A stretch of DNA of 46,525 bases, taken from NCBI RefSeq assembly GCF_003060865.1, contig NZ_CP028919.1:237501-284025 (forward strand), written 5' to 3'. The notes beneath the pieces were generated by a model. That model did not search any database. It was given only the letters and a program-made list of their open reading frames with translations, and was not told the DNA's origin. The stretch comes from Gemmobacter aquarius. Its GTDB lineage: Bacteria > Pseudomonadota > Alphaproteobacteria > Rhodobacterales > Rhodobacteraceae. The position numbers and the translations under genes are program-made. Positions 2,877 through 26,788 of the stretch are shown one piece after another. Numbering within the stretch: position 1 is the first letter of the stretch; every line of letters begins with the position of its first letter.

Positions 2877-4352
2877 ATGGCGGAATTGAACGATGCGGCT
2901 GGAGCAAGCATTGTGCGGCTTTATGGCGTGGCCATCGAGGCTGCGTGGAATTTCTTTAAGGCGCGACTTTTCATGCACGATGCCAGCATCCGGCCACACC
3001 CTTCACTCGGGGCGCGCCTTCACGCGGTGTTCCATCTTCATGATCCCGCCGATCCGGTTGCCCGTTTTGTGGATCGATCCGTGGTCGCCGTGGTTTGCGG
3101 TGCGTCGCTTGCGGCGTGGTTCGATCTTGGCGGGGTGATCGGTTCGAGTGCCGCGCGCTGGATGCGCGGGCTGGATCTGCTGGCAACGGTGCTGCTGACA
3201 CTGGAATATCTGGTGCGGATTGCCGTTGCCCGACACGGCCCGCAACAGGGCGGGAAAAGGCCGGGCGTCATGCGATATATCCTGTCGCCCATGGCTCTGG
3301 TCGATCTTGTCGCGATCCTGCCTGCGTGGTTGTCGCTGGTCTTTCCTGTCGATCTTGGCGTTTCGCGCTTGTTGAGGTTGTTTCGGCTGGCGTCGGCGCT
3401 GCATGTTTTCAGGCCGCAATGGGCCGAGTTCCATTCGGCAAACCGTGACGAAAGCCTGCAAAGGAAAGTCTACAATCTGTTGTTTTCGCCCGAAGGGGGT
3501 GGGCGTCTGCATGATCTGGTCGAGCGGTTCCTGATCTGGAGTGTCGCGGCGTCGGTGCTGATCGTCACGCTCGAGACTGTCGCGTCGTTGCAGTTGCGCT
3601 TTCATCGGCAGTTTGCCTCGCTGGATGTGCTGATCGGGGCTGTGTTCCTGCTGGAATACGGGCTGCGGCTGTATTCCGTACCCTGCGATCCGCGTTTCGC
3701 CCGTCCCTTGATGGGCAGGTTGCGCTACGGGTTCACGCCGGGGGCGTTGATCGATTTGCTGGCTTTGCTGCCGCTGTTGTTCTTCTTTGCGGGCTGGGAT
3801 CTGGCGCTGTTTCCGGTCTTGCGCCTGTTCCGCATGCTGAAACTGGTGCGGCACTCGAAGGCGCTGGCGCTGATCGTGGATGTTGTCCGCGACGAAAGGC
3901 AGACGTTGCAAGCGGCGGTGTTTATCCTGTTTGTCCTGACGACGCTTGCCGGAACCGGAGTGTATTTCGCCGAGCATTCCGCCCAGCCGGACCGGTTCAG
4001 TTCCATTCCGGCGTCGATGTATTGGGCGGTAGTGACGTTAAGCTCTATCGGTTACGGCGATGTGTATCCGGTGACTGTGGTGGGGCGCGCGATGACGATG
4101 GTACTGGCGATTGCCAGTCTGGGCATGGTGGCGCTGCCTGCGGGAATCATCGCTACGGCCTTTTCCGAGCGGTTGCGCCAGACCGTGGCGGGACGCCATG
4201 CGCCAAAAGCGGAAGCGGGCGAAAGCGTAACGGGCACGGTGGCGCGGATCGAGGCGCTCTGGCGCGGTATGGGGGCCGAGGATCGCGCGATCCTGCGTGC
4301 GATGCTGGACGCCGAGGCGTCAGGCATCGCCAGTCAGGGCGGGCGCGGCTGA
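2877..4352 (+). CDS. Voltage-gated-type potassium channel with two voltage-sensor domains
   Basis: Predicted inner-membrane K+ channel of about 491 residues. Residues about 60-190 form a first S1-S4 bundle ending in an arginine-spaced helix (VSRLLRLFRLAS) with no pore after it. A second S1-S4 bundle follows (about 225-330, S4 VLRLFRMLKLVR), then S5, a pore loop with the selectivity filter TLSSIGYGD near residue 391, and S6. The C-terminal tail of about 60 residues is short and soluble. Two S1-S4 units before a single pore is unusual; ordinary bacterial Kv channels have one. The chosen ATG follows AAGG. An in-frame ATG lies upstream at 2784 and another downstream at 2974. It overlaps convergently by 33 bp with the carrier gene at 4320. 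Confidence 0.82.
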   Translation: MAELNDAAGASIVRLYGVAIEAAWNFFKARLFMHDASIRPHPSLGARLHAVFHLHDPADPVARFVDRSVVAVVCGASLAAWFDLGGVIGSSAARWMRGLDLLATVLLTLEYLVRIAVARHGPQQGGKRPGVMRYILSPMALVDLVAILPAWLSLVFPVDLGVSRLLRLFRLASALHVFRPQWAEFHSANRDESLQRKVYNLLFSPEGGGRLHDLVERFLIWSVAASVLIVTLETVASLQLRFHRQFASLDVLIGAVFLLEYGLRLYSVPCDPRFARPLMGRLRYGFTPGALIDLLALLPLLFFFAGWDLALFPVLRLFRMLKLVRHSKALALIVDVVRDERQTLQAAVFILFVLTTLAGTGVYFAEHSAQPDRFSSIPASMYWAVVTLSSIGYGDVYPVTVVGRAMTMVLAIASLGMVALPAGIIATAFSERLRQTVAGRHAPKAEAGESVTGTVARIEALWRGMGAEDRAILRAMLDAEASGIASQGGRG

Positions 4353-5660
4353 GATGCGTTTTGCCCGCGCCGTGCTTGCCGATACGACCTCGACCAGCGC
4401 ATGGGTAACGGCAACGGAGACCGGAATGAGCAGCAATTCGAGCAATGGTTCCAGCACGATGACGAGCACGGCCAAAGCCTCGACCGGCAGGCCGAGTTCC
4501 ATTCCGCAAAAGGCAATCGAGGCGGCGAACACGCCCGGACCATTCAGGCCCGAGATCAGCACCGCGGCGAGGACCGACAGGGCAACGACACTGGCAAGCA
4601 TGGAAAGACTGGCGGGCAGATCATACAGCGCCAAGGTGTAGGTGAGAACACTGGCCAGAATGGCGATCATGCCAAAGCGTCCGATCGACAGGCCGAGTGA
4701 CGCCACGATTTCCTGCGTGTCGTCATCTTCGGAGTCGGCCGAGTGCCGCCGGATACGGCGCAGCATTTCGGGCAATGCGGCTTCTTCCGTCATGGCGAGG
4801 ATGCCTGCCAGTGCCGAGGCTTTCAGGTCGGATGCCACGGCAAGTGGTGATTTCAGGGTCAGCACGGCCACAAGCAGGACCGCAGCCAGAAGCACGGCCA
4901 GCGATGCGGCGGCAACAACGCCGAACAGCAGTTTCAGCGCCGAGAAATCGGCGGCGGAAACGGCATGCGATGCGTGGATGGCATACATGAAGACCGCGAC
5001 CGGAACAAAGTATTGCATCGCCTCCATCAAATGCTCGAAGGGCCGTCTTGCTGCGCCGACGACTTCGAGAAATCCGGCGCTGTAACCGGGGGCGAGATTG
5101 AGGATGGCGATGGAGAAGATGATCAGAAAGACGATCATCTGACCGATATTGGCGGTGGCCAAAGCGTGGAAGATGTTTTCGGGAATGAACCCCGTTACGA
5201 GGCGGGCAAGCAGCGATGGCTCGACAGAGTCGGGGGCTGCAAGGGAGACCTCGACAAAGTTGGCATCCGCCTTGTCGAAAGCTGCGATCAAGGGGCCTAT
5301 GCCGTTGGCGACCGCCGTATCGGCCGCGGCACAGATGACCCATGAAACCGCAATCGATACGACCGCTGCAAGCACCATTGCCAGCGGAAGATAGACCATA
5401 ATGCGCAGGCTGGTCGGGTTCGCGCCGGTTTCGTCGCGCCTGAGGCTGATGATGGAATGGACGATGGTCAGCGCCAGAAAGGGCAGGGCCATGGTGCGGT
5501 AGATCGTGGAGTAAATCTGCTGGAACCTGTCCGGCAGATCGTCGAAGGCAAAGAGCGTTCCGAGCCAGACCCCGAGTATGGCAGCGGCTAGCACTCCCGG
5601 ACCCGAGGTGAGCAAGCGAAGCATTGTGTGGCGGTGCTTATCGGCGTGGGAATGGGTCAT
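4320..5660 (-). CDS. SDF/DAACS-family carrier, divergent substrate site (second copy)
   Basis: Multi-pass inner-membrane protein of 446 residues related to dicarboxylate/amino-acid:cation symporters (family motif GFIPENIFHAL; eight-helix-plus-hairpin pattern). By eye, the conserved substrate and sodium motifs are not kept. The serine-rich HP1 tip reads AMTEEAALPE, the NMDGT loop of TM7 is replaced (SIGRFGM), and the TM8 acidic/arginine motif reads EPLLELLLIPVSV. It is therefore likely to carry something other than Glu/Asp, or to act as a partner of the carrier at 6378. It is the last gene of the leftward operon, 11 nt after the racemase-like gene, and its 3' end overlaps the convergent channel gene. 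Function is inferred only at family level. Confidence 0.78.
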   Translation of the reverse strand: MTHSHADKHRHTMLRLLTSGPGVLAAAILGVWLGTLFAFDDLPDRFQQIYSTIYRTMALPFLALTIVHSIISLRRDETGANPTSLRIMVYLPLAMVLAAVVSIAVSWVICAAADTAVANGIGPLIAAFDKADANFVEVSLAAPDSVEPSLLARLVTGFIPENIFHALATANIGQMIVFLIIFSIAILNLAPGYSAGFLEVVGAARRPFEHLMEAMQYFVPVAVFMYAIHASHAVSAADFSALKLLFGVVAAASLAVLLAAVLLVAVLTLKSPLAVASDLKASALAGILAMTEEAALPEMLRRIRRHSADSEDDDTQEIVASLGLSIGRFGMIAILASVLTYTLALYDLPASLSMLASVVALSVLAAVLISGLNGPGVFAASIAFCGMELGLPVEALAVLVIVLEPLLELLLIPVSVAVTHALVEVVSASTARAKRISAAPALTGDA

Positions 5661-5671
5661 GGATCAGGCCG

Positions 5672-6376
5672 TCAAAATCTGGGAATGCGTCCGAGCCTGC
5701 GGAGCAGCGCACGGGCGAGGGAAAGATTGCTGTCATACAGGCGGACGCCCTGACTTTCGGTTTCCAGCCCGAAGGCTACCGAAATTTCCGTGCAGCCGAG
5801 GATGGCATTGGTGCAGCCGGACGCGGCAAGCAGGCGAAGGCCCTTTTCCAGACTGTCACGGCCCCGGGCGATATGTCCTGCTTTGACCAGACGGATGCCG
5901 CCTTCGATGAACCGGTCATGGGTTGGCTGGTCCAGAACGACAGGTACATAGCCGGCGGCGACAAGCGGCCTTTGGTAGATGCCGGATGCGATTGTGCCGG
6001 GGGTCGCAAGCACGCCGATCAGGGCCTTTGTTGCCACGGCTTCGCTCAGGTCGGAAAGCGTGGACTCGACGATTGACAGGATCGGGGGCGCGACTGCCTT
6101 TTGCAGCGCATCGAACCAGTAGTGCGCCGAATTGCAGGGGATGACGATGATCCCCGCACCGGCGCGCTCAAGCAGCCGCAGGCGATCACACAGCGCGGCT
6201 TCGGGGCTGGCGCCTTGTCCTGCTATGGCGGCCGAGCGGTCGGGGATGTCGGGGTCGGACAGAGTCAGGACGCGCACATGGTTCTGGTCGACATCCGCCA
6301 CCGTCAAGCGTGTCAGTTTGTCGAGGAAGTCGACCGTGGCAGATGGACCCATGCCTCCCAGAACACCTACAAGCAT
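5672..6376 (-). CDS. Aspartate/glutamate racemase-superfamily enzyme
   Basis: Cytosolic protein of about 234 residues. It begins with the family signature GVLGGMGPSATVDF and has both catalytic-cysteine motifs: IPCNSAHYWF near residue 80 and ILGCTEISV near residue 190. Two cysteines fit a cofactor-independent racemase or isomerase (amino-acid racemase, hydantoin racemase or a relative); the precise substrate cannot be read. The ATG at 6376 is preferred because it sits one base after the previous stop (TGACATG) and directly before the beta strand of the family motif. Upstream in-frame codons would overlap the preceding gene. Its place between two carrier genes suggests it acts on the transported solute. 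Confidence 0.85.
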   Translation of the reverse strand: MLVGVLGGMGPSATVDFLDKLTRLTVADVDQNHVRVLTLSDPDIPDRSAAIAGQGASPEAALCDRLRLLERAGAGIIVIPCNSAHYWFDALQKAVAPPILSIVESTLSDLSEAVATKALIGVLATPGTIASGIYQRPLVAAGYVPVVLDQPTHDRFIEGGIRLVKAGHIARGRDSLEKGLRLLAASGCTNAILGCTEISVAFGLETESQGVRLYDSNLSLARALLRRLGRIPRF

Positions 6377-6377
6377 G

Positions 6378-7703
6378 TCATTTGGCGGCTTGAGCGGTGG
6401 CGGGAGACAGGGCGGCTTGGTGGCCATCGGCGACCGGACGCGGCACGATCAGCGAGGCGAGGGCGCAGTTGCCGTAGACGAGTACCAAGGTGCGGACCAC
6501 GTCGATCACCGGATCGACCGCGATGAAAAGCACGATTGCCGCTTCCACAGGCAATTTCATGGGTTCCGCGACAAGGCTGATCAGCATGACGGCCATTGCG
6601 CCCGTAGCACCGCTGGCGGCCAGACCGGCTGCAATCGAGGCGATGAAGATCGTCGCATAGCCGCGGGCATCGATTTCGACGCCGTAGACCTGGGCGATGA
6701 ACACGGTGCCGATCAGAAGGTAGGAAACGGTCGCGACGCGGCAAAGCGTGATGCCGAGCGGAAGGACAAGATCGACGCCCTTTGGTGCGAACCGCAGGTT
6801 TTCGGTCATTTCGCGCACAGCGATCGGAATGCAGCTAAGGCTTGACCGCGTGCTCACGGCCATGATGATCGTATCTCCGAGTTGGCCGAGGGCGGCCAAC
6901 GGCGATATGCGCGCGCGATACGAGATGACCAGGACCGCAATTGTCAGCAGGACCGCACCCGAAAGGGCTTGCACCTCGATGAACCGGCCCAAGGACAGCA
7001 ATGGCCCGACCCCGACGCTGGCGACCTGTGCCGCAAGCATCGCGAACAGGGCAAAGGGCAGCAACAGGTTGAGCCAGCGGATCACCTGTGTGCAGGCATG
7101 CTGCACGACCGAGAAAAACCCCAAGAGCGCCCCTGTCCCCGAGCCGGAACTGCGCGCTAGGGCCGCGCCGAAGACGATGCAGAATATGACGGTCTTGAGG
7201 CTGTCACCCGAACTGAGGGCGGCGAAGATGTTTTCGGGAATGAACCTGTCCAGGAGACTGATCGCGGGATCGTCGGTTGCCTTTGCGTCCGAGCCGGAAA
7301 GCGTGATTTCGACATCGGTGGCGCTGGCGCCGTTTTCGCTGCCGCTGACGATGCCGCCGAGTGCTTCCATGACCGTGCCGTCAACCGTGCCGCCGGGGGG
7401 CAGGATAAAGGTGCAGGCTAGCGCTACCGAGGCCGACAGCACCATTGCAGCGGGATAGATCAGGACAATGCGCTTGATGTATTGCTTTGCGCTCGGGTCC
7501 GACGCCATGCGGGCCACGCCCGATGTGATGGTGACGAACAGATAGGGCAGGATGATCATCTTCAGCAGGCTGATGTAATAGCCGCCGATCGGTGCGAACT
7601 GCTTGGCCGTCTCGGGGCTTTGGATGCCTGTGAAGATTGCGGTTATGATGACCGCGAGCAGCAGAAGCGGATGAAGCAGGATGCGGCTGATCGTGCTGGA
7701 CAT
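6378..7703 (-). CDS. SDF/DAACS-family carrier, divergent substrate site (first copy)
   Basis: Inner-membrane carrier of 441 residues from the dicarboxylate/amino-acid:cation symporter family. Recognisable parts are RFIPENIFAALSS, an HP1-like STRSSLSCIP and a TM8 with VDPVIDVVRT, which keeps the arginine and acidic positions. By eye it lacks the canonical NMDGT of TM7 (here ITLCRVAT), and the end of the TM8 motif is changed (VLVYGN instead of NVxGD), so cation coupling or substrate may differ. The ATG lies one base after the stop of the binding-protein gene, in the same TGACATG junction found at two other boundaries of this operon. It probably moves the ligand of the adjacent binding protein, although such carriers usually work without one. 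Confidence 0.82.
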   Translation of the reverse strand: MSSTISRILLHPLLLLAVIITAIFTGIQSPETAKQFAPIGGYYISLLKMIILPYLFVTITSGVARMASDPSAKQYIKRIVLIYPAAMVLSASVALACTFILPPGGTVDGTVMEALGGIVSGSENGASATDVEITLSGSDAKATDDPAISLLDRFIPENIFAALSSGDSLKTVIFCIVFGAALARSSGSGTGALLGFFSVVQHACTQVIRWLNLLLPFALFAMLAAQVASVGVGPLLSLGRFIEVQALSGAVLLTIAVLVISYRARISPLAALGQLGDTIIMAVSTRSSLSCIPIAVREMTENLRFAPKGVDLVLPLGITLCRVATVSYLLIGTVFIAQVYGVEIDARGYATIFIASIAAGLAASGATGAMAVMLISLVAEPMKLPVEAAIVLFIAVDPVIDVVRTLVLVYGNCALASLIVPRPVADGHQAALSPATAQAAK

Positions 7704-7704
7704 G

Positions 7705-8574
7705 TCAGTGGCCCCCTTCGGTTTCGGTCGAGGCCCGGTAAAGCGCGATCAATTCGTCTGCCGTTACTTGTGTGGCACGCTCGTCGATCACCTGGTTGAC
7801 GATGCCCAGCAGGCGCGGGCGGTCCCACGGCGCGGCCACGGCGATGGAATCGCGTGCATCGTTGATGGTCACGGTGCGCAGGCTGATCGAGGCATCGGGA
7901 CGGTCGACGGCCACTTTGCGGATTTCGAATTCGTCGCGGTACGAGGCGTCGACCTTGCCGGCGATGGTTGCCTCGATCACCTCGTCCCATGTTTTAAACG
8001 GCACAACGGTCGCGTGGGGGAACCGCTCTTTGGCGAATGTCGCGAAGGAGGAATTTTCGATCACGCCGATAGACCCTTCGAAGTGGCGTACGACTTCTGC
8101 GATGTCGCGGCCTTCGGTCATGCGGGCCAGCTTGAGCCGGTTGAAGATGAGGGCGTGACGCAGCCGCGCGTATGGTTCCGAGAAGGCGACGACCTGCGCC
8201 CGCGCATGGGTGCGGCTGATCTTGGAAATCGCAAGGTCGGCCTGTCCCAGCGCGACCTTTGCAACGACGTCGTTGAAGGTCTCGGCGTCGCGGTTGAATT
8301 CCACCTTGACCCCCAAGGCTTCCGCCACCCGTTCGGCGAGCGTCACGTCGATGCCTTCGAGATGCTTGCCGCTACCGCTATAAAACGGCGGGTTGTCGAA
8401 GGATGTCATCGCAACGATCAGCGTGCCGCGATCGACGATCGCGGCGACATCGGGGGCAAGGGGGAGGGGGGCCGCACCGGATGCAACGACTTGTGCCGAG
8501 GCCGGCGACAGGCCGAACGATACAGTGGCGATGGCAACGGCAACAAAGGCACGCATTGAAGATTTGAATATCAT
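7705..8574 (-). CDS. Periplasmic solute-binding protein, amino-acid type (SBP_bac_3)
   Basis: A 289-residue secreted protein with an N-terminal signal sequence (hydrophobic AFVAVAIATVSFGLS, cleavage probably after PASAQ). The mature part has the family-3 binding-protein pattern: GTLIVAMTSFDNPPF, a GIDVTLAERVAEALG segment, then the ligand-site arginine region ISRTHARAQVVAFSEPY. It is expected to bind an amino acid or related carboxylate in the periplasm. No ABC permease or ATPase is encoded nearby; instead it is followed at 1 nt by an SDF-type carrier. The start is either ATG 8574, coupled to the upstream stop by TGACATG, or the in-frame ATG at 8556. Confidence 0.86.
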   Translation of the reverse strand: MIFKSSMRAFVAVAIATVSFGLSPASAQVVASGAAPLPLAPDVAAIVDRGTLIVAMTSFDNPPFYSGSGKHLEGIDVTLAERVAEALGVKVEFNRDAETFNDVVAKVALGQADLAISKISRTHARAQVVAFSEPYARLRHALIFNRLKLARMTEGRDIAEVVRHFEGSIGVIENSSFATFAKERFPHATVVPFKTWDEVIEATIAGKVDASYRDEFEIRKVAVDRPDASISLRTVTINDARDSIAVAAPWDRPRLLGIVNQVIDERATQVTADELIALYRASTETEGGH

Positions 8575-8575
8575 G

Positions 8576-8905
8576 TCATGACTTTTTCTGAGGGCTGCGT
8601 AGACCGGCCGTAGGGAACGCGGCCAAAGCCACGGGGGCGACTGTTAGCGCCAGATATTCGAGATAGGTCTTGCCCCACATGGTTTCCCACATCGAACAGG
8701 CGAAATCGAAGGGTTCACCGATGCGTTCGGCCAAGGCGATTTCGGTTTGCCAAAGCGTCGTATCGTAGCCGGCTTCGTCGAAGCTGTAGCCGTGGTCGCG
8801 GGCATCGGCGAGCACGACTTCTTTGGGGGCAAGACGCAAGGCCGACAAGCGGGCGTCGTCTTTACCCAAGACAAGGAGATATTCGAAAACAGACTGATCA
8901 ACCAT
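8576..8905 (-). CDS. Nif11-like small protein A
   Basis: A 109-residue protein that I read as related to the Nif11 / Nif11-like leader family. The N-terminal 45 residues match that pattern loosely: a short amphipathic helix, a KEVVLADARDHGYSFDE segment and acidic spacing. The C-terminal half has tryptophans and the motif SMWETMWGKTYLEYL, shared with the neighbour protein B of identical length. There is no GG or GA cleavage motif. ATG 8905 is chosen because it overlaps the stop of protein B by 8 nt (translational coupling) and puts both paralogues at 109 residues. Nif11-like proteins are often precursors or leaders of ribosomal peptide products, but that role is only a hypothesis here. Confidence 0.7.
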   Translation of the reverse strand: MVDQSVFEYLLVLGKDDARLSALRLAPKEVVLADARDHGYSFDEAGYDTTLWQTEIALAERIGEPFDFACSMWETMWGKTYLEYLALTVAPVALAAFPTAGLRSPQKKS

Positions 8906-9227
8906 TTTCGGCCTCTGATACCAGCGTGTTACGCACGACCGCGTCCATTGGAGCCCAGAGTTCATGCACGATGTAATCGAGCCGTGACCGGCCCCACATT
9001 GCCCGCCACAGCCGGCTTTCGCCGTCTATGGGCTGACCGTCGGCAACTGTGATGCGCCAAACCTCCATGCCGCCAATCAGGGTGCCAAAATCACCGGTTC
9101 GCAAATCGAAGCCGTCGCAGCGGGCAGCAAACATCAGGTCGGGAAGTGCCATGCGTTCGTAACGCGCCAGTACGTCGGGCCGGTCCGAGCAGTGTTCGAG
9201 GAACCTCGCGAGTTCAGAGACAGACAT
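8898..9227 (-). CDS. Nif11-like small protein B
   Basis: A 109-residue protein starting MSVSELARFLEHC. Its N-terminal part (SELARFLEHCSDRPDVLARY, then FAARCDGFDLRTGDF) is the better Nif11-like match of the pair. The C-terminal half contains SRLWRAMWGRSRLDYIVHEL, matching the Trp-rich motif of protein A. It carries two cysteines in the leader-like half. It starts 27 nt after the GMC oxidoreductase gene and overlaps protein A. Nif11 domains are known as leaders that guide peptide-modifying enzymes, and as small proteins in nitrogen-fixation loci. No nif genes and no lanthipeptide or radical-SAM enzymes occur in this window, so its job is unknown. Confidence 0.72.
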   Translation of the reverse strand: MSVSELARFLEHCSDRPDVLARYERMALPDLMFAARCDGFDLRTGDFGTLIGGMEVWRITVADGQPIDGESRLWRAMWGRSRLDYIVHELWAPMDAVVRNTLVSEAENG

Positions 9228-9254
9228 AGCGCACCCCGTTGACAGTTTTCGCCA

Positions 9255-10835
9255 TCATGCCTGTCCCAGAATGAAATCGGCCGCGCGTTCGGCGATCATC
9301 ACCGTGGTCGTATGGGTATTTGCCGAAACGATCGTCGGCATGATCGAAGCATCGCAGATCCGCAGCCCGTCGATGCCATGCACTTTGAGCGTCGGATCGA
9401 CCACTGCCATCGCATCGGTGCCCATCTTGGAGGTGCCGACGAAATGGTAATACGAGCCGATGTTTTCGATCACCCACTGGCGCAGCGCGTCACGGGTGGT
9501 GACGGTGGGACCGGGCGACAATTCGACCAGACCCAGACCTTCGGCAAAGGCCTTGGCAGCAAAGATCTTGCGCGAAATCTCGATCATATCGACCGTTCGT
9601 TCAAGGTCGGATGCCTCGCCGAAATAGTTACAATCGACAAGCGGATGCGCGGCAGGATCGGTGCTTTGCAGCCGGATCGACCCGCGCGACAGGGGGCGTA
9701 CAAGACCGGGCAGGGCTAGCACTACATGCGGGTCAACCAGTTCGGTCGCATTTGCGACGGGCTGGCCTGTCTGCACGCGCTTGATCACACTTTCAAAGAA
9801 TTTCGGGCCGAACGGAGCGCGGTGGACGAGGCAAATCTCGAGATCGGGTACGGATTGGTCGTTCGAGCTCGAGCAGAACAATGCGACTTCCGTCACATTT
9901 CCGCGTGGCGGCAGGGCAGGTTCGGCCAGATACCCGATAGGGCCGATGACCAGCGGGTGATCATGCAGGTTTTGTCCGACGCCAGGCAGGACGTGCTTTA
10001 CGTCCAATCCCAGCGCATCGAGATCAGCCTTTGGACCGATGCCCGACAGCATCAGCAACTTTGGTGTCTGGATCGTGCCGGTCGTAACCAGCACTTCGCG
10101 GCGGGCTGTTGCAATGACCGTGCTGCCATCGGCGGAATACTCGACGCCCGTCGCCCGCTTGCCGTCTAGAACGATGCGGTTCGCCATCGCCCGTGTCACC
10201 ACGGTCAGGTTGGCGCGATCTTTCGCCGGAGCGTAATAGGCGGCATAGACACCGACACGTTTGCCGGCTTCCATGTCGACGTGGTGCCAGCCTGCGCCGG
10301 TATTGGAAGCGTTGAAGTCATCGACCTCGGGGTAACCGATTTCGACGCAAGCATCGATGAAGGTGCGCGAAACGGGGTTGCCGGTGTCGCCAGCGTTGCT
10401 GACCGGGATCATTCCAGCCTTGCCAGCGGTCGGGTTGGTGCCGTCAAGCTGGCGCTCTAGCTTTTGCAGGTAGGGCAACACATCGGAATGGGACCAACCC
10501 GACGCGCCTTGGGCCGCCCAGTCGTCATAGTCTTGCGGGCGTCCGCGCGTGTGGATCATGTGAAAGATGTTCGACGTGCCGCCGATGCCGCGACCCGAGG
10601 CGGAATAGACCTGACGGCCCTGGAGTCCTGGTTGGGGCACGCCCATATAGGCCCAGTCCAGATCTGTCAGCAGCAGTTCGTTCCAGCGGAACGGGCTTTC
10701 GACGGCGTCGTTGATCGCGTTGCCGCCCGCCTCGATCATCAGCACGGAAATGGCGGGATCATCGGTAAGCCGGTTCGCCAGCACGCAACCGGCCGTGCCG
10801 CCGCCTACAATGATGTAATCGAATGTGTGGTCCAT
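9255..10835 (-). CDS. GMC-family FAD oxidoreductase (first copy)
   Basis: A 526-residue flavoprotein of the glucose-methanol-choline family. The N-terminal ADP-binding motif (YIIVGGGTAGCVLANRL) is followed by the GMC signature region (GRGIGGTSNIFHMIHTRGRP), the second signature (TTGTIQTPKLLMLSGIGP) and the C-terminal catalytic region (HFVGTSKMG, then ANTHTTTVMI). The catalytic His of HxVGT is present; the second position usually Asn or His reads His. It should oxidise an alcohol to an aldehyde or further. ATG 10835 is preferred since AAGGA lies 7 nt upstream, giving a 20-nt gap to the previous gene; an upstream TTG at 10859 is less likely. It forms a pair with the GMC gene upstream but the two are clearly divergent. 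Confidence 0.9.
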   Translation of the reverse strand: MDHTFDYIIVGGGTAGCVLANRLTDDPAISVLMIEAGGNAINDAVESPFRWNELLLTDLDWAYMGVPQPGLQGRQVYSASGRGIGGTSNIFHMIHTRGRPQDYDDWAAQGASGWSHSDVLPYLQKLERQLDGTNPTAGKAGMIPVSNAGDTGNPVSRTFIDACVEIGYPEVDDFNASNTGAGWHHVDMEAGKRVGVYAAYYAPAKDRANLTVVTRAMANRIVLDGKRATGVEYSADGSTVIATARREVLVTTGTIQTPKLLMLSGIGPKADLDALGLDVKHVLPGVGQNLHDHPLVIGPIGYLAEPALPPRGNVTEVALFCSSSNDQSVPDLEICLVHRAPFGPKFFESVIKRVQTGQPVANATELVDPHVVLALPGLVRPLSRGSIRLQSTDPAAHPLVDCNYFGEASDLERTVDMIEISRKIFAAKAFAEGLGLVELSPGPTVTTRDALRQWVIENIGSYYHFVGTSKMGTDAMAVVDPTLKVHGIDGLRICDASIMPTIVSANTHTTTVMIAERAADFILGQA

Positions 10836-10855
10836 TTGTTTGGTCCTTATCGTCT

Positions 10856-12394: not shown

Positions 12395-12455
12395 GATTCA
12401 GACCCTGTGCCGCATCGAGCGGCGTGTTTGAAATTTCGTATTGGCCAAGTTTGGC

Positions 12456-13151
12456 TTACGCCGTAGCCCGCGCATCCGGCCCGATCAGCCAATATTCCTT
12501 GGTGAGCATCGGAAAGATCTGGCGCGGGTCCAGCGTCGACCCTGCGGCCTTTGGCAGCATCACCGGGCTGGTCGAGCTGGCAAAGGCTGCCTCGGCGGCT
12601 GCGGTGCTTGCAAACCAGTAGTGCGCCACTTCGTCGAAGCGCGCTTCACCGACGGTATAGAGTCCGTCGCGTGCAAAAGCCAAATCGCAGCGGAGAAGGC
12701 CGGGGATCAAGGCCGCACCTGCAACAAGTTCGGCGCGCCGGTTGTCGCGATACGCAGCCACATCAAGCGCAAGATTGCGCTTGGCGAGGACCAGAAGCTT
12801 GACGCCATCCGCAGGGACAGGGCCGTCGAGTACGGTTTGCGTTTCGCAATCGAGAACGGCAGTCATCCAGAAGGCAGCCCAGTTGGGCTCGTCGATCCGC
12901 GCACCCTGAAGGAACTCGGGCGTTTGCATCGAGGCAAGTTGTTCGGCGTCGTTGCGCAGCCAGATTTCGGCACAACCGCTCCAGATCGGCGCGGTGTCTA
13001 TGCTGCACGGGACGCGAAGGGCAAGCCGGTAGCGGGCAATCTGCGGTATCTTGACCGCAAAGCGGACAGCGTGAACGTTCAGCCAATAGTCCTGAAAGTC
13101 GGCCTCGGTCATTCCCGGACGTGGTGTTGCGTAGATGTGCTGATGAATCAC
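12456..13151 (-). CDS. EthD-domain protein, two ferredoxin-like repeats
   Basis: A 231-residue protein with two dimeric alpha-beta barrel halves. The first (IHQHIYATPRPGMTEADFQD, then YWLNVHA) is a clear EthD-type domain; the second (from KLLVLAKRNL to VGEARFDEVAHYWF) is a diverged copy. EthD-like folds include small monooxygenase- and cyclase-like proteins often found beside oxidoreductases; no catalytic role can be proved here. A GTG at 13151 is preferred: GGAG lies six nt upstream and the conserved domain begins at once. The ATG at 13202 would add an unusual AT-rich extension. It is the first gene of the leftward operon, facing the shared intergenic region. Confidence 0.8.
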   Translation of the reverse strand: MIHQHIYATPRPGMTEADFQDYWLNVHAVRFAVKIPQIARYRLALRVPCSIDTAPIWSGCAEIWLRNDAEQLASMQTPEFLQGARIDEPNWAAFWMTAVLDCETQTVLDGPVPADGVKLLVLAKRNLALDVAAYRDNRRAELVAGAALIPGLLRCDLAFARDGLYTVGEARFDEVAHYWFASTAAAEAAFASSTSPVMLPKAAGSTLDPRQIFPMLTKEYWLIGPDARATA

Positions 13152-14568: not shown

Positions 14569-14570
14569 CC

Positions 14571-20227: not shown

Positions 20228-20256
20228 CCAATCCACAGCAAACCCAAAAGGCTGCC

Positions 20257-22392
20257 ATGAACGCCCTTGATTTTACCTTTTCGGACCTCATCGCCGGGTA
20301 TGTCACCCGCTATGATGCTGCCACCGACCGCTTCGGGCTGAAAACCAGCGACGGTCGAGAATATGACATCGGCATGACGCCGAATACCTATGCCGAGGTG
20401 ATCCGCAACCTTGGCGAAGGGTTCAACAATGCGTCCGACCACATGCGCGACATGCTGGTTCCCGGTCGTTTCGTGTTCGCTTACGGGGTGTTCTATCCCG
20501 ATGGACCGAAAGGTTCGATCCAGTTCGACGTTAAGCATATCGTGTTTGCCGGTCGGTCGGAGACGATGTACGATTTTGAACGCCCCGACTGGTGGATCAA
20601 GCAGATCGACCAGCTTGGCAAGTTCTACATCAATGCCGAATTCGGTGACGGGCCGATCGACTATGCCAATTACCGCACCAACCTGTCGTCGTCAGGTGCA
20701 CACCAGCAAAGCGGGCGTCAGGAGACCGACACGATCTCGCGTCTGGTTTACGGGTTCTCGTCGGCCTATCTGCTGACGGGAAAGGACGAGTATCTGGAAG
20801 CCGCAGAGAAGGGCACGCAGTATCTGCGCGACCATCTGCGCTTTTCGGATGCGGGCGAGGATATCGTTTATTGGTATCATGCGGTCGACATCAAAGCCGA
20901 TGGCAAGGAGCACAAGGTGCTCGCCTCGGAATTCGGTGACGATTACGATGCGCTCCCTTGCTACGAGCAGATCTATGCGCTTGCCGGTCCGGTGCAGACC
21001 TACCGTGTCACGGGCGACAAGGCGATTTACGATGACGCTCGCCGCACGATCAACCTGTTCAACCGCTTTTACAAAGACCAAAGCGCTGCGGGCGGCTATT
21101 ACAGCCACATCGACCCGATCACGCTGGACGCCCATGCCGAAGGGCTGGGCCACAACCGTGCACGCAAGAACTGGAATTCGGTTGGCGACCACGCGCCGGC
21201 GTATCTGATCAACCTGTGGCTGGCCACGGGCGAGAAGTCGCATGCCGATTTCCTCGAATACACCTTTGACACCATCGCCGAACATTTCCCAGATTACGAA
21301 AACAGCCCATTCGTTCAGGAAAAGTTCTTTGACGACTGGTCCAAGGATCAAAGCTGGGGTTGGCAGCAGAACCGTGCGGTCGTCGGGCATAACCTGAAGA
21401 TCGCGTGGAACCTGATGCGGATGAACAGCCTGAAGGGCAAGGAATCCTACGTCGCCCTGGCCGAGAAGATTGCGGCGCTGATCCCCGAACATGGCGCCGA
21501 CCGCCAGCGTGGCGGCTGGTATGACGTGGTCGAACGCGTGTTGGAACCGGGTCAAAAATTCCACCGCTATGCATGGCACGACCGCAAGGCGTGGTGGCAG
21601 CAAGAGCAGGGTATTCTGGCCTATCTCATCCTGAACGGGGTGCTGGGCAAAGAGGAATACCTGAAATACGCGCGCGAGGGGTCGGCGTTCTACAACGCAT
21701 GGTTCCTCGACGTGGAAGAGGGCGGAATCTATTTCAACGTGCTTGCGAACGGTCAGCCCTATTCGCTGGGCACCGAGCGCGGCAAAGGCAGCCACTCGAT
21801 GGCGGGCTATCACTCGTTCGAGTTGTGCTATCTGGCGGCGACCTACACCAACCTCTTGATCCACAAAGAGCCGATGGACTTCCACTTCCGGCCCAAGCCC
21901 GGTGGGTTTGCCGACGGCATCCTGCGCGTCCAGCCGGATATCTTGCCGGAAGGGTCGATCCGGATCGACGAAGTCTGGATCGATGGCCACGCTTACGAGG
22001 ATTTTGACGCGCAGGCGCTTACGGTCAAATTGCCCGCAGGGCACGGCGACATCCGCGTTCGCGTGCGGCTGGTGCCGAATTCGGTGCGGTTCGATGCCGA
22101 TCTTTTGTCGGTGAAGGACGGGATCGGGCAGATCGTGCTGTCAGGCAAGATGACACCGCTTGATCTCAAGTATCTCGACGAAGCCGTGTCCGGCGCGATG
22201 TCGCAAGGTGTGACGGGTCTGGCGATCGATGCGACCAAGCTGGAAAGCATCTGTGCCGAGGGCCTGCGCTACCTGATCTTCCGCAAGCAGAAAGCGGGCG
22301 AGGATTTCGCCGTGTCGATCTCGGGTGCGAACGACACGATTTCGGGTGCGATCAAGGCGTCGGAATTCGACGAAGAGATCACGCTGAACTGA
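20257..22392 (+). CDS. AGE/six-hairpin-fold protein fused to a STAS domain
   Basis: About 711 residues. An N-terminal segment of about 120 residues (LDFTFSDLIAGYVTRYDAA) is followed by an (alpha/alpha)6 domain of the N-acylglucosamine-2-epimerase or glycosidase type (segments DHLRFSDAGEDIVYWY, YYSHIDPITLDAHAEG, QNRAVVGHNLKIAWN, with the conserved tryptophans and histidines). The last 100 residues are a STAS domain (IVLSGKMTPLDLKYLDEAV, then GLRYLIFRKQKAG). By eye the usual phospho-acceptor motif DSxG reads CAEG, so the serine is missing. A soluble sugar isomerase or glycoside-active enzyme is likely. AAAAGG lies 5 nt before ATG 20257; an upstream in-frame ATG at 20224 overlaps the glgX stop as ATGA. 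An intrinsic terminator follows. Confidence 0.8.
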   Translation: MNALDFTFSDLIAGYVTRYDAATDRFGLKTSDGREYDIGMTPNTYAEVIRNLGEGFNNASDHMRDMLVPGRFVFAYGVFYPDGPKGSIQFDVKHIVFAGRSETMYDFERPDWWIKQIDQLGKFYINAEFGDGPIDYANYRTNLSSSGAHQQSGRQETDTISRLVYGFSSAYLLTGKDEYLEAAEKGTQYLRDHLRFSDAGEDIVYWYHAVDIKADGKEHKVLASEFGDDYDALPCYEQIYALAGPVQTYRVTGDKAIYDDARRTINLFNRFYKDQSAAGGYYSHIDPITLDAHAEGLGHNRARKNWNSVGDHAPAYLINLWLATGEKSHADFLEYTFDTIAEHFPDYENSPFVQEKFFDDWSKDQSWGWQQNRAVVGHNLKIAWNLMRMNSLKGKESYVALAEKIAALIPEHGADRQRGGWYDVVERVLEPGQKFHRYAWHDRKAWWQQEQGILAYLILNGVLGKEEYLKYAREGSAFYNAWFLDVEEGGIYFNVLANGQPYSLGTERGKGSHSMAGYHSFELCYLAATYTNLLIHKEPMDFHFRPKPGGFADGILRVQPDILPEGSIRIDEVWIDGHAYEDFDAQALTVKLPAGHGDIRVRVRLVPNSVRFDADLLSVKDGIGQIVLSGKMTPLDLKYLDEAVSGAMSQGVTGLAIDATKLESICAEGLRYLIFRKQKAGEDFAVSISGANDTISGAIKASEFDEEITLN

Positions 22393-22402
22393 CGGTTTCC
22401 TG

Positions 22403-22430
22403 AAAGGGCGGCTTCGTGCCGCCCTTTTTC
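22403..22430 (+). terminator. Intrinsic terminator inside the rightward arm
   Basis: A 10-bp perfect stem (AAAGGGCGGC / GCCGCCCTTT) with a TTCGT loop, ending in five T. It lies 11 nt after the AGE-STAS gene and splits the rightward arm into two transcription units or lowers expression of the distal genes. Confidence 0.88.
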
Positions 22431-22470
22431 AATTTCCGCCGCGTTGCGCGGCAATAACAGAGTATGTCCC

Positions 22471-23037
22471 ATGGCCGCTCCCAAGATCGCCATCCTGATC
22501 GAAAGCGACTTCTACGAACACGAGATCTGGTATTATCACTATCGCTTTCTTGAAGCCGGTTACGACGCGCAATTCGTCACGCGGCTTTGGGGCAACGATG
22601 CCATCACTTTTAAGGGGCACGAATACCACGCGCCTTTTGAGTGCCGTGGCGACCTTGAAAAGCTCGATGATGCCACGCTGGACCAATATGCCGCGTTGAT
22701 CGTGCCGTCGGGCATGGTTTCGGACCGACTGCGCTATACCGAGGATCTTGGCCGTATCCCGCCCGCGTCAGACCTGTTGAAGCGGGCCTTTGCCAAGCCG
22801 AACCTGCTTAAGGGGATGATTTGTCACAGCCTGTGGCTTGCGGCTCCGGTTGTCGAGATCGTCAAGGGTCGCCGACTGACCTGCCACCCCAACCTGCACG
22901 GCGATGCCTTGGCTTACGGGGCCTCCTTTGTGGACGAGGATGTGGTTGTGGACGGTGATCTGGTGACGGCGCGGACCGGCGGGCATGCGCATCTTCTGGC
23001 AGCGAAGCTGATACAGATGATCGAAGGCAAAGGCTGA
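22471..23037 (+). CDS. PfpI/DJ-1-family protein
   Basis: A compact 188-residue PfpI-type protein: early acidic motif LIESDFYEHEIWYY, nucleophile elbow LKGMICHSLWLAAP with the Cys-His pair typical of PfpI-like deglycase/protease members, and the C-terminal VDEDVVVDGDLVTART segment. It is a paralogue at superfamily level of the 276-residue DJ-1 protein at 15526, but closer to the short PfpI subgroup. It opens the second unit of the rightward arm, after the terminator, and ends one base before the GlgC-like start. It is probably a protective or repair enzyme for carbonyl-modified molecules; the exact substrate is unknown. Confidence 0.88.
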   Translation: MAAPKIAILIESDFYEHEIWYYHYRFLEAGYDAQFVTRLWGNDAITFKGHEYHAPFECRGDLEKLDDATLDQYAALIVPSGMVSDRLRYTEDLGRIPPASDLLKRAFAKPNLLKGMICHSLWLAAPVVEIVKGRRLTCHPNLHGDALAYGASFVDEDVVVDGDLVTARTGGHAHLLAAKLIQMIEGKG

Positions 23038-23038
23038 T

Positions 23039-23947
23039 GTGACCGTGAGCTTGCTTGCACAAACCGGGATGATCGGTGCCGGCCCCGACGGGCTTGTCGC
23101 GGTATTGTTGGCGGGGGGACGGGGGTCGCGACTTGGCGATTTGACCGCGCGCCAATCCAAGCCTGCCGTCGAATTTACCGGCGGGCGACGGATCGTCGAT
23201 TTCGTGATGGGCAATGCCATCCAATCGGGCATCGACGCGATGATCGTCTGCACCCAATGGCAACCCGACACGCTGGTCGCGCATCTGCGTGCGCATTGGG
23301 CGGCAGGTTTTGCGCGCGGACTTGTGTTTCGGGACGGAGCGGATGTTGCGCAATCGGGCGGGTATCTGGGCACCGCGCATGCGGTGGCGTGCAATGCGGC
23401 CGAATTGGATGGCGCAGGCGCGCGCGAGGTGCTGGTTCTGGCGGCAGACCACATCTACGCGATGGACTACCGCGAGATGGTTGCCGTGCATCGCGCGGTC
23501 GGATTGCCGGTGACGGTCGCAGCCCTGCCGGTTGCCCGCGAGGCGGCGCGCAGCTTTGGCGTGTTCGAGACGCGTGGTCCCTGCCATGCGGTGCGGTTTC
23601 TGGAAAAGCCCGACGATCCGCCAGCGATGTTCGGCAATCCCGATCGCGCCCTGATCAGCATGGGCATCTATATTTTCAACTGGGCATGGTTGCGCGACGT
23701 GATTGGACAGGACGCTACGGGTTCCTGTCAGGTACCGCTGGACTTTGGCAACGACTTGCTGCCGAGGGCGGTCGAGCGGGGCGAAGTCGGGGTGTATTGT
23801 TTCAGCACGCCCGGAGTCGAGGAACCGCCCTATTGGCGCGATGTCGGCACGGTTTCTGCCCTGACCGATGCCCGCGCCGATCTGGCGGGGGACAACCCTC
23901 CGATACCGCTGCCCGTCTATCCGGTTGCCGCGTCGGGATCGGGCTGA
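23039..23947 (+). CDS. GlgC-like nucleotidyltransferase lacking the C-terminal beta-helix
   Basis: A 302-residue nucleotidyltransferase resembling the catalytic domain of ADP-glucose pyrophosphorylase. The N-terminal loop is LLAGGRGSRLGDLTARQSKP, followed by AADHIYAMDYREM, a GIYIFN strand and PYWRDVGTVSAL near the C-terminus. GlgC is normally 400-430 residues with a left-handed beta-helix that carries allosteric control; here the protein stops just after the catalytic domain. It may activate a sugar 1-phosphate with ATP or another NTP. The start is GTG at 23039, overlapping the previous TGATG. With the debranching enzyme it suggests glucan or nucleotide-sugar chemistry in the cluster, but no glycogen synthase is present. 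Confidence 0.85.
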   Translation: MTVSLLAQTGMIGAGPDGLVAVLLAGGRGSRLGDLTARQSKPAVEFTGGRRIVDFVMGNAIQSGIDAMIVCTQWQPDTLVAHLRAHWAAGFARGLVFRDGADVAQSGGYLGTAHAVACNAAELDGAGAREVLVLAADHIYAMDYREMVAVHRAVGLPVTVAALPVAREAARSFGVFETRGPCHAVRFLEKPDDPPAMFGNPDRALISMGIYIFNWAWLRDVIGQDATGSCQVPLDFGNDLLPRAVERGEVGVYCFSTPGVEEPPYWRDVGTVSALTDARADLAGDNPPIPLPVYPVAASGSG

Positions 23948-23993: not shown

Positions 23994-26252
23994 ATGAATG
24001 CGCCGAAGACCTATGACGACATTACCGCGCTTTGGCAAAGCTGGTGCGACGCGCGGGGTGCATCGGGGCAGGGTGATCCGGCGGTCGCGCTAAAGCATGT
24101 GCTTGCGGAGCGGCGGATACCGGCGGGGCTGGCCGACCTGCGGCGGGCTTTGGCCCTGTGCGGGCCGGTTGCAACAATTGACCGGCAGGGGTTTATCGAT
24201 GCCATCCTGCCGGTGGTGGCCGCGCCTGCTTTGCGGCTGGAGCATGCCTTTGCATATTTTGGTGCCACGGATGCCGAACTGCCGGTCGAGCGGGTGCGCG
24301 ATGTGCTGGGGCATCTGTTTCATGATGGCGATATGCTGGATGCAATGCTGGCTGACCTTGACGCCAATGGCGACCGCTGCGTGACGTTTGACGATTTTCT
24401 TGAATTCTATCCCGAGAAGGCGGCGGCTGAGCCGGATGGAGTGGCCGTTTCCGCCCCGCTTTCGCAAGCTGCGGTCGCGGCACCGCGTCCGGTGTCGCGT
24501 GCGCATTTCGGCGATGTCGCCACTTCGCCCCTGCAAATGCAGACGGGATTTTTCCGTTTGCTGCAGGGGGCGGCTTACCGGACATTCCGTGAAAGTTATT
24601 CCGCCAATTCCGAGAGCCATCTGCGCGCCCGTGATTTGCCCTATACCGTGTCTGACTTCGCGGTGTTCGTGCGCGCCGCGACCGAGTTCTACCTGTCGCT
24701 GGGCCTTGTCGAAGGCGACCGCGCGGTGGCCGAGTTTCATCGGCTGGTGGCACTGGTCGAGGCGCAGCACCAAAGCCTGTGCGTCCGGATCGCCACTTGG
24801 GACAAAGTCGCCAAGACCGATGCGATGCTGGCGGCAGAAGCCGTGCTGGAAGGTGAGCTTGCCGCTTTGGCAGACCACCGAGAAAGGTTTGCGGAAGCTG
24901 TGGAATACCTGCTTGCCCTGCGTGCACATCGGATTTCGCCTACCGAGGTGCGCGCCGACAGCCTGACGCGCCACGAGATGGACCGCCTGCGGCATGGCGA
25001 ATTGAATGCGGAACACGGCCATGTCGCACCGCGCGGCGGGCGTGCGCGGCCCGGACCCTATCATGACAGCTGGAGCCCTGTCGTGCTGGCGGCCGGTGAA
25101 CCGCGCGCGGCTGGAACGATCATGCCGGTGGCGTTCTGGTACGACGATTTCATGCCGCAATTGTTGCTGTGTGTATCGATCCTGACAGACGCCGATCTGG
25201 ACGCCGAAACATCATGTGCCGAGTTGGAGCTTGACGCATGGCATGCCGGATACGCAGGTCTTGGAGCGTTTGACCGTTACGGAACCGATCTGCGCGACGG
25301 GTTCGCCGCCTGTCCGGTGCGCGTAAAGCTGGCGCTGCGGCAGGCGTGGCGTTTGTCGGAACATTACCTCAACAGCCTGCAAAAGCGCCGAGAACGCGCA
25401 GAGTTCGGCCGCGAGACCGGATATCTGAGCCAGTATGTGTCGTTCATCGACCTGCATCTGGGGCGGACGGATGTTGCCGATGCGGAAATGCGGATCAGCT
25501 TTCCCTATTTCATCGGACCCGCCGTCTGGTGCTTGTTGCATACGGCTGCCAATCTGGTCGAGGATATGTCGGGTGCAGCCAAGAGTGCGGCGGTGGACCG
25601 CTTCAAGGCGTTTTTCCGGGCCTTTGCCACAATGTATCCGTGCCCCTACTGCCGCTACCACCTGAACCGCTACGTCGTCCGCAACCGCGAGGTCAATTTC
25701 TATCCGGTCGAATTCTTGTTGCTGGGCCAACGCGAGGACCGCGATTGGTTCGACATCTCGCTCGACGACAGGCTGGCAACGATTTCCGCCGACAAAAGCG
25801 GTTCTTTTGCGCTGTTCGTTTGGAAATTGCACAATGCGGTCTCGTCGTCGATTGCTCGGACCGAAGAGTGGTATCACCGCGAGGAGCATCCGCTTTACAC
25901 CACCCGTTTCTGGCCCGGATTGGATACCGAAATCGCGCGGATGCGAAGCAGCGGTATCGAGCAAATGCCGGTCGGACGGCTGGCGGCCATTTACGGGGTC
26001 ATCAAACCGTCGGTCGAACTGGCGACGCTGCGGGATGAAATCCAGCTGGCCTTGCACGGCGAAAAGGCAACCGGACTAGACGCTATTACGGCGCGTGCCG
26101 CCGACTGTGTGTCGCGTCTCGAAACGGCAATGACCGAGGCTGACCTATTGCGACAGACCTATGTGTTCGACAGCACCAAATTCGATCCGCCGCCGCATAT
26201 TTCCGAGCAGGAAGAAAGCTATGCGCGGAGCGGGTATTATGTCGAACGATAA
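23994..26252 (+). CDS. EF-hand protein with C-terminal Erv1/ALR-like sulfhydryl oxidase domain
   Basis: A 752-residue protein with an uncommon domain order. Residues about 75-145 have EF-hand-like helices, the clearest loop being DANGDRCVTFDDF near residue 122. A middle helical region of unknown fold (about 170-490) follows. Residues about 505-625 match the Erv1/ALR FAD-linked sulfhydryl oxidase pattern: FPYFIGPAVWCLLHTAANL, the redox pair YPCPYC, and FVWKLHNAVSSSI. No signal peptide or membrane helix is seen, so it should be cytosolic unless exported otherwise. It probably forms disulfides in a partner using O2. ATG 23994 is preceded by AAGGA at a long spacing. It lies 46 nt after the GlgC-like gene. 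Confidence 0.75.
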   Translation: MNAPKTYDDITALWQSWCDARGASGQGDPAVALKHVLAERRIPAGLADLRRALALCGPVATIDRQGFIDAILPVVAAPALRLEHAFAYFGATDAELPVERVRDVLGHLFHDGDMLDAMLADLDANGDRCVTFDDFLEFYPEKAAAEPDGVAVSAPLSQAAVAAPRPVSRAHFGDVATSPLQMQTGFFRLLQGAAYRTFRESYSANSESHLRARDLPYTVSDFAVFVRAATEFYLSLGLVEGDRAVAEFHRLVALVEAQHQSLCVRIATWDKVAKTDAMLAAEAVLEGELAALADHRERFAEAVEYLLALRAHRISPTEVRADSLTRHEMDRLRHGELNAEHGHVAPRGGRARPGPYHDSWSPVVLAAGEPRAAGTIMPVAFWYDDFMPQLLLCVSILTDADLDAETSCAELELDAWHAGYAGLGAFDRYGTDLRDGFAACPVRVKLALRQAWRLSEHYLNSLQKRRERAEFGRETGYLSQYVSFIDLHLGRTDVADAEMRISFPYFIGPAVWCLLHTAANLVEDMSGAAKSAAVDRFKAFFRAFATMYPCPYCRYHLNRYVVRNREVNFYPVEFLLLGQREDRDWFDISLDDRLATISADKSGSFALFVWKLHNAVSSSIARTEEWYHREEHPLYTTRFWPGLDTEIARMRSSGIEQMPVGRLAAIYGVIKPSVELATLRDEIQLALHGEKATGLDAITARAADCVSRLETAMTEADLLRQTYVFDSTKFDPPPHISEQEESYARSGYYVER

Positions 26253-26314
26253 AGTCGTTTGCCGCCGATGGCGGATTTGCTGCCCCACGCTTTTATGGAA
26301 AACCGGAGACTGTA

Positions 26315-26788
26315 ATGAAAAGACTTTCACTGCTGGCTACCCTCTTTGCGACCGCTTTCACGCCCGCGTTCGCAGCGTCTACCGTGACCGTCATCCACGG
26401 CAAGACCCCTGATCCGGTCTATCTCGACCTCGGGGTCGAGGGCGCCTCGGTCGGCGACCAGCGCATTTTCGAATTTGGCGGCGCGACGACCGAGGGCGAA
26501 GCCGTTACTCTGGATTTCCTTATGACCACGACAGGGTTGCCCGAGGACGGGTCGGAGTTGGAAAACCGCATGACGGTTGCGGTTTTTACCTTTGGTAACG
26601 GGTCGGGCGACCGTGTGATGATCGAAGGCTTGGGCCAATATCCGCAGGCGGGATCGACTGTAAAGGTCGATGCGGCGCTGGAACGGGCAATCGTCGGCGG
26701 GACCGGAAAATATGCCGGAGCGCGCGGCACGGTGGTATCGACGCATCTTGCGGACGGAAGCTGGCAGCACGTGCTGAACCTAGACTGA
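26315..26788 (+). CDS. Secreted allene-oxide-cyclase/dirigent-like barrel protein
   Basis: A 157-residue protein with a Sec signal peptide (MKRLSLLATLFATAFTPAFA, cleavage likely after AFAA). The mature part is beta-rich: VGDQRIFEFGG, then VMIEGLGQYPQAGSTVKVD and an AIVGGTGKYAGARGTV segment, which is the typical barrel motif of allene-oxide-cyclase/dirigent-like proteins (GGTGxFxxARG). In plants this fold steers cyclisation or coupling of reactive intermediates; bacterial members have no agreed role. It has a good ribosome site (GGAGACTGTA). It is the last gene of the rightward arm, 62 nt after the Erv-domain gene, and would act in the periplasm or outside the cell. Confidence 0.82.
   Translation: MKRLSLLATLFATAFTPAFAASTVTVIHGKTPDPVYLDLGVEGASVGDQRIFEFGGATTEGEAVTLDFLMTTTGLPEDGSELENRMTVAVFTFGNGSGDRVMIEGLGQYPQAGSTVKVDAALERAIVGGTGKYAGARGTVVSTHLADGSWQHVLNLD

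Follow-up and report, generated by a model that had tools for sequence, protein, structure and literature searches.

A horizontally distributed gene cluster of thiamine diphosphate-dependent, DJ-1-family and sugar enzymes in Gemmobacter aquarius

Described systems and the locus

In the mandelate pathway, mandelate is converted to benzoylformate and this in turn to benzaldehyde, so that a 2-hydroxy acid passes via a 2-oxo acid to an aldehyde. For HchA, residues C185, E77, G153 and G154 are needed for the hydration of oxoaldehydes, and H186 was dispensable in an end-point assay (according to passages of PMC11301059). DJ-1 hydrolyses cyclic 3-phosphoglyceric anhydride (cPGA), a reactive glycolytic compound, far more efficiently than it acts on methylglyoxal (as stated in parts of PMC10915168). 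The GlgX of Streptomyces venezuelae is activated by cyclic di-GMP (c-di-GMP), as sections of PMC9530166 report. Here we describe a locus in which a thiamine diphosphate (ThDP)-dependent enzyme, two DJ-1-family proteins, an AGE-family epimerase and a GlgX-type debranching enzyme stand side by side. It lies in a stretch of 46,525 nucleotides from Gemmobacter aquarius (contig NZ_CP028919.1, positions 237,501 to 284,025; hereafter the window), whose left end holds the last part of an rRNA operon together with a tRNA-Met gene and which belongs to contig C2 of a 4.2-Mb genome. The region 8576-23947 of the window is part of a conserved, horizontally distributed metabolic cluster, which represents a selected unit.

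No description of the gene set of this cluster was found in the open-access literature, in agreement with the original prediction, which had recognised no described pathway in it. Each named part belongs to a known family; as far as seen in that literature, the combination, its spread and the arrangement of STAS proteins among enzymes are undescribed.

A conserved and horizontally distributed cluster

The ThDP-dependent enzyme (16398..18107, + strand) served as seed family. A tblastn search against plasmids revealed relatives of 45-58% identity in Nostoc, Runella, Deinococcus and Streptomyces, after which identity fell to 31% among the matches listed (20 of 1549 records), and five plasmid neighbourhoods were examined. 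The scan of species genomes gave at least 593 pattern matches and 526 confirmed relatives (E <= 1e-3), the best 80 of which were kept (52-78% identity). Together with the window, the 85 fetched loci form a set of 86, reaching about 10 kb to each side and in many cases ended by a contig end, whose open reading frames were clustered de novo into gene families. The ThDP enzyme recurs in the 85 fetched loci with 49-78% identity and in 13 named phyla, seven of which are represented in the genome collection by one labelled locus each, many loci being taken from metagenome bins. Its closest relative among the fetched loci (78%) is found in Roseicyclus mahoneyensis (Roseobacteraceae). The contig L051, labelled Alphaproteobacteria, carries a ThDP enzyme identical to that of Runella L052 and is probably mis-binned; it was retained in the counts.

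The core of the cluster comprises the ThDP enzyme (86 of 86 loci), the DJ-1 proteins DJ-1a (15526..16356, + strand; 85 loci) and DJ-1b (22444..23037, + strand; 60 loci), the AGE-family epimerase (20224..22392, + strand; 55 loci) and GlgX (18095..20227, + strand; 48 loci), to which variable oxidoreductases and small isomerase-like folds (GMC, EthD, NTF2/SnoaL, VOC) are added. DJ-1a is missing from a single locus (L025), whose stretch begins at a contig end. Gene orders vary widely, and the members remain neighbours: DJ-1a lies less than 200 bp from the ThDP gene in 70 of 85 loci, on the same strand in all 70, and AGE and GlgX are less than 1 kb apart in 41 of the 46 loci having both. One GMC family is present in 38 loci, or 47 when a second is added, and further families comprise NTF2-like (45), VOC (45), SnoaL (21), EthD (17), nSTAND1 (11), ParA (7) and Nif11 (5) proteins. 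Moreover, a family of 147 aa with an NTF2/SnoaL-like fold occurs in 56 loci, not including the window, and genes for a molybdenum-type (Mo-)aldehyde oxidase, an aldo-keto reductase (AKR), an alcohol dehydrogenase (ADH) and metallo-beta-lactamase-fold proteins are found in other loci.

AGE (E <= 1e-50) and DJ-1a (E <= 1e-40) were also used as seeds independently of each other, in 398 evenly sampled Pseudomonadota genomes; AGE was found in four genomes and DJ-1a in the identical four, close together each time. Under independent placement this coincidence would have a chance of about 1e-9, two of the four genomes being of the same genus. The other three seed genomes show the order AGE, DJ-1b, DJ-1a, GlgX, one with a 3-kb gap before GlgX and another with GlgX cut by a contig end. 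A ThDP match in G235 was considered as a second cluster and rejected (37% identity by blastx, interruption by a stop, and no matches nearby other than those of GMC and Fer2 type). The AGE type itself is frequent in public genome and metagenome data: of 8000 candidates scored, 4116 were relatives with E <= 1e-100.

With regard to mobility, the ThDP enzyme (E <= 1e-100) was not found in 100 related genomes, which include 18 from the genus itself, and its absence from these 18 implies that the cluster moves; judged from these searches, it is horizontally distributed with a patchy spread. A formamidase gene is present in 8 of 19 genomes of the genus (own genome included), and the compared stretches matched the window at this gene alone, which left the insertion site undefined by same-genus synteny. 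A gene set that stays together in 13 named phyla and yet moves horizontally points strongly to a single selected function.

The original prediction had placed its genes at 4320..26788, in two tightly spaced arms reading outward from one intergenic region. All of them were found there, and the gap measurements bore out the layout, with gaps of -50 to +62 bp within the arms and a single gap of 340 bp parting them (13212..13551, assigned to no strand). The GlgX and AGE genes share 4 bp (ATGA), and the starts of the AGE and Erv1 genes were corrected to 20224 and 23994, respectively. In Roseicyclus, the window from 8.6 to 23.7 kb is collinear with 69-74% DNA identity and the same divergent layout, and no aligned stretch was found inside 13212..13551. 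On a plasmid of Nostoc ATCC 53789, genes of both arms form one same-strand run including AGE, DJ-1b, DJ-1a, ThDP, EthD, two Nif11, two GMC, MetX-like, hydrolase and GH13 genes. The neighbourhood comparison shows both arms together in these two cases, and the claim that they form one functional unit gains support for 8576-23947 from the Roseicyclus collinearity and the single Nostoc run; it is not supported for the whole gene list. Independent occurrence of parts was indeed seen for the edges and to some degree for the core, which is modular, AGE-DJ-1b-DJ-1a-GlgX occurring without ThDP in three genomes. A grouping beyond chance holds because of the cross-phylum recurrence, though not for every gene listed. 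Most of the family labels given earlier were matched, apart from the STAS tail of AGE, the Nif11-like pair, the EF-hand and the barrel resembling allene oxide cyclase (AOC), which received no Pfam call above cut-off in the window proteins.

Proposed chemistry and its rivals

The ThDP enzyme is benzoylformate-decarboxylase-like, and its closest matches in the PDB are benzoylformate decarboxylases. E50 and H73, which we take to be the ThDP Glu and the active-site His of benzoylformate decarboxylase, align with the solved 6a50, and each is conserved in 95% or more of 87 sequences. In DJ-1a, a ThiJ-like protein (PF17124) with an Hsp31/glyoxalase III fold, E19, G132, G133, C164 and H191 are invariant among 24 sequences, and the structural model, with a predicted local distance difference test score (pLDDT) of 90.0, gave Foldseek matches including GLO3, Hsp31 and SAV0551. 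DJ-1a has the Glu, Cys and Gly-Gly required in HchA, the equivalence being judged by position in the fold of a predicted structure, and DJ-1b is a DJ-1/PfpI family member with C127-H128. From this we infer that the DJ-1 proteins would act on 2-oxoaldehydes in the manner of a glyoxalase III.

GlgX scored 716 bits against the NCBIfam TIGR02100 cut-off of 640.9, and its catalytic D363, E400 and H471/D472, presumably the nucleophile, the acid and the HD motif of GH13 enzymes, are intact; D363 is kept in 46 of 46 family members and E400, H471 and D472 in 40 of 46 each. It is a second genome copy of an isoamylase-type debranching enzyme: the host contig C1 carries a higher-scoring GlgX near a full-scoring GlgC gene, and the cluster copies are therefore extra. 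The second such copy is a GlgC-like nucleotidyltransferase (23039..23947, + strand), which covers the N-terminal 266 of 364 GlgC positions and reached 239-240 bits against a cut-off of 424.9. It occupies the same place in Roseicyclus and is clearly common only with this genome (65%), a match of 28% in L006 aside. The AGE protein (PF07221, 60 bits against a cut-off of 23.4) has an extra N-terminal region and a STAS-like region at its C-terminus. The two GMC flavoenzymes are encoded on the opposite arm, GMC 1 at 9255..10859 and the choline/alcohol oxidase-like GMC 2, with a conserved His450, at 10856..12394 (both - strand; the family of GMC 2 is the one of the 38 loci). To judge by their families, the GMC enzymes might oxidise hydroxy acids or alcohols and the ThDP enzyme might catalyse decarboxylation or carboligation.

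Our best explanation, which we put forward tentatively and at less than an even chance, is that glycogen debranching feeds a 2-oxoaldehyde/2-oxo-acid chemistry, this chemistry being read from the protein families. From stored glycogen, GlgX would free linear glucan; rearrangement of the reducing-end sugar would fall to AGE. Reactive 2-oxoaldehydes derived from such sugars (R-CO-CHO) would then be converted to 2-hydroxy acids by the two DJ-1 proteins through glyoxalase III chemistry. A GMC enzyme would oxidise these to 2-oxo acids, which the ThDP enzyme may decarboxylate to a shorter aldehyde; in other loci, Mo-aldehyde oxidase, AKR or ADH could take this aldehyde onward. The broader claim of a widespread route, in which glycogen-derived osones undergo glyoxalase III-type hydration, oxidation and ThDP decarboxylation as a mandelate-like chain-shortening that is partner-switch-gated in many bacteria, seems to us distinctly unlikely.

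Several observations weigh against the glycogen-fed route. The ThDP enzyme reached only 266 of 493 bits for the benzoylformate decarboxylase NCBIfam PRK07092, which is below the cut-off, and the active-site Ser of the GNPGS motif is replaced by Thr27. At E <= 1e-120 it was not found in the three genomes with AGE-DJ-1b-DJ-1a-GlgX, and it therefore falls outside the smallest core. In place of the GHxxE motif, which reads GHAIE and GHNSE in two solved sequences, the window AGE has GHNLK, its Lys392 being invariant in 19 sequences. AGE was not seen in 31 of the 86 loci; 26 of these 31 genomes were searched, with AGE elsewhere in 20 and not found in 6. Neither GMC family was seen in 39 of 86 loci within the fetched stretches, so that GMC is no obligatory step unless replaced by another enzyme. 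Finally, the proposed route leaves the NTF2, SnoaL and EthD proteins unexplained.

These accessory proteins would find a place if the cluster made a specialised, sugar-derived small molecule, with GlgX and AGE supplying the sugar, the ThDP enzyme performing a carboligation and GMC, EthD, SnoaL, NTF2 and VOC proteins tailoring products that differ by accessory genes. We consider this possible, if rather unlikely. The accessory set indeed varies strongly between loci, a Runella locus alone encoding five members of the SnoaL and two of the NTF2 family; Nif11 pairs and the two hydrolases are confined to a few loci, and the horizontal spread is patchy. However, among the recurrent families we saw neither a conserved scaffold-building synthase nor a shared exporter, and two DJ-1 proteins together with GlgX are unusual for biosynthesis. 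Alternatively, glycogen mobilisation and damage control of glycolytic by-products, with DJ-1 hydrolysing cPGA or oxoaldehydes, might be co-inherited because the cell requires them simultaneously, for instance on drying or rewetting, in a stress-regulated assembly without a shared substrate. We regard this as doubtful. It is favoured by the cPGA hydrolase activity of DJ-1 (passages of PMC10915168) and by the regulators found among the 86 loci, namely free STAS proteins in 29, RsbW-like in 24 and SpoIIE-like in 11, all 55 free STAS proteins from relatives retaining the second Ser of the SSAGLR motif. The count of 29 is a cleaned one and replaces a count of 34, which held 12 wrong-frame open reading frames, that of the window included. 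On the other hand, these regulators are absent from the window cluster, RsbW was seen in none of the 30 cyanobacterial loci within the fetched stretches, which retain the enzyme core, and damage control leaves the ThDP and GMC enzymes unexplained. Both explanations are close rivals of the glycogen-fed route, and the data do not separate the three.

Two further possibilities concern the region as a whole. That all 19 genes of 4320-26788 constitute one pathway, as the original prediction inferred, including amino-acid-type uptake and the secreted barrel, is very improbable. Spacing is tight throughout, and the uptake block at 4320..8574 (- strand; SDF carrier, CuyB-like racemase, SDF carrier and SBP_bac_3 protein) has a counterpart in just one of the 85 other loci, that of Leptolyngbya Heron Island J, where a racemase-SBP-SDF set with one clear SDF directly precedes DJ-1a and ThDP. 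This set was not seen in the other 84 loci, Roseicyclus included, however; an SBP-SDF pair stands in G073 with no cluster gene within the 15 kb fetched, and no relative of the AOC-like gene turned up either in the 85 loci (E 1e-5) or among 100 related genomes (E 1e-10). Chance accretion in a hotspot of horizontal transfer downstream of the rRNA operon would agree with the closeness to rRNA and with the absence of ThDP from the 18 genomes of the genus, but it is scarcely credible, and for the core contradicted, in view of the same set in so many phyla and of two independently seeded families which co-occur exactly in 4 of 398 genomes.

As to regulation, genes for free STAS proteins, an RsbW-type kinase and a SpoIIE phosphatase stand among the enzyme genes of many relatives, where such a partner switch probably gates the cluster. 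The window cluster is apparently not under such control. No RsbW or SpoIIE family member was seen in the window by locus family comparison, and the degenerate STAS-like tail of its AGE is sub-threshold (PF13466, 14.2 of 29.2 bits) and reads SICAEGLR as compared with SSAGLR, without a phosphorylatable serine. An AGE relative of 85% identity (P0126) carries a STAS domain call. Of the 120 AGE relatives listed, 109 had tails that matched in a search with a loose motif, and 65 of these tails keep Ser or Thr at one of the two places. A gene family directly follows the RsbW-like gene in L004, L046, L049, L050, L055, L057, L058, L061, L063, L071 and L077; its L004 member is an nSTAND1 NTPase.

Neighbouring genes and comparison with known systems

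The remaining genes of the conserved region lie around the intergenic gap and at its left edge. An EthD-fold protein (12456..13211, - strand) belongs to the family found in 17 loci. The MetX-like alpha/beta hydrolase (13552..14568) and a further alpha/beta hydrolase (14571..15467), both on the + strand, are shared, among the 85 other loci, only with Roseicyclus and one Nostoc. The small Nif11-domain-like proteins a (8898..9227) and b (8576..8905), both on the - strand, are two paralogue types with a conserved LWxxMWG(K/R) near the C-terminus (10 sequences), and such pairs account for the 5 Nif11 loci. They gave no Pfam match even at E 10, and a Nostoc homologue matched Nif11 with 42.6 bits. 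As precursors of ribosomally synthesised and post-translationally modified peptides they were rejected, because the C-terminal stretch is conserved and not hypervariable.

The uptake block is a separate module and not part of the core. Its Asp/Glu-type racemase scored 213 bits against the 190-bit NCBIfam cut-off for the cysteate racemase CuyB. SBP_bac_3 genes adjoin SDF carriers in the window, in G073 and in Leptolyngbya (L120; L028), and no ABC component was called in the window block; SBP_bac_3 and SDF are a candidate for a binding-protein-assisted SDF transporter. To the left, an ion channel gene (PF00520; 2784-4352) adjoins the region, and the family of a TMEM175-like channel from L007 is present in four relatives' loci (L007, L013, L045 and L074). 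On the other side, an accessory gene (23994..26252, + strand) encodes a protein of about 760 aa with an EF-hand-type part, a large central region and an Erv1/ALR sulfhydryl oxidase (CPYC). Pfam called no EF-hand motif in the protein of the window, but such motifs are present in relatives, of which there are 118 at E <= 1e-3, the named ones in Rhodobacterales, Rhizobium and Nostocales. The gene occurs in 4 of 36 cluster-bearing genomes: in two of them, Roseicyclus and a Rhizobium metagenome-assembled genome, it adjoins the cluster, and in two cyanobacteria it lies outside the fetched stretches. The secreted dirigent/AOC-like barrel (26315..26788, + strand), a weak and sub-threshold match (Dirigent, 22.9 bits against 29.1), is probably an unrelated neighbour. 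Further on, MreB-like and bactofilin genes lie adjacent at 27785-29516 in a stretch of low G+C, the G+C content at third codon positions being 0.46 in the MreB gene as compared with 0.60 and 0.77 in two flanking genes; this is possibly another foreign insert.

The cluster ties glycogen breakdown to DJ-1-family proteins, whose true substrates are debated, and thereby offers a bacterial context for a genetic test of the substrate of a DJ-1 subfamily. Compared with the mandelate pathway, the order of hydroxy-acid oxidation, a benzoylformate-decarboxylase-type ThDP step and aldehyde oxidation would be shared if the proposal holds; in contrast, no mandelate racemase or FMN hydroxy-acid dehydrogenase is among the Pfam hits of the window cluster, sugar enzymes are attached to it, and its ThDP enzyme stays under the benzoylformate decarboxylase cut-off. 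With the canonical glycogen operon (glg genes) it shares GlgX and a GlgC-like protein, but here GlgX sits with AGE, DJ-1 and ThDP enzymes, and GlgB, GlgA and GlgP are not among the annotated cluster genes. The c-di-GMP-activated GlgX of Streptomyces venezuelae was considered as a likeness for the window GlgX, as a case of a signal-controlled GlgX (sections of PMC9530166). Like partner-switching modules, many relatives' clusters contain STAS, RsbW and SpoIIE genes; unlike them, the cluster STAS stands between metabolic enzymes or forms the tail of AGE, and the window has neither phosphosite nor kinase nor phosphatase. With the Hsp31/HchA glyoxalase III and the DJ-1 cPGA hydrolase, DJ-1a has in common the fold and the conserved Glu, Cys and Gly-Gly, whereas the Cys is followed by Tyr in DJ-1a, by His in HchA and by Ala in DJ-1, and the window cluster differs from both systems in that it carries two members of the DJ-1 family.

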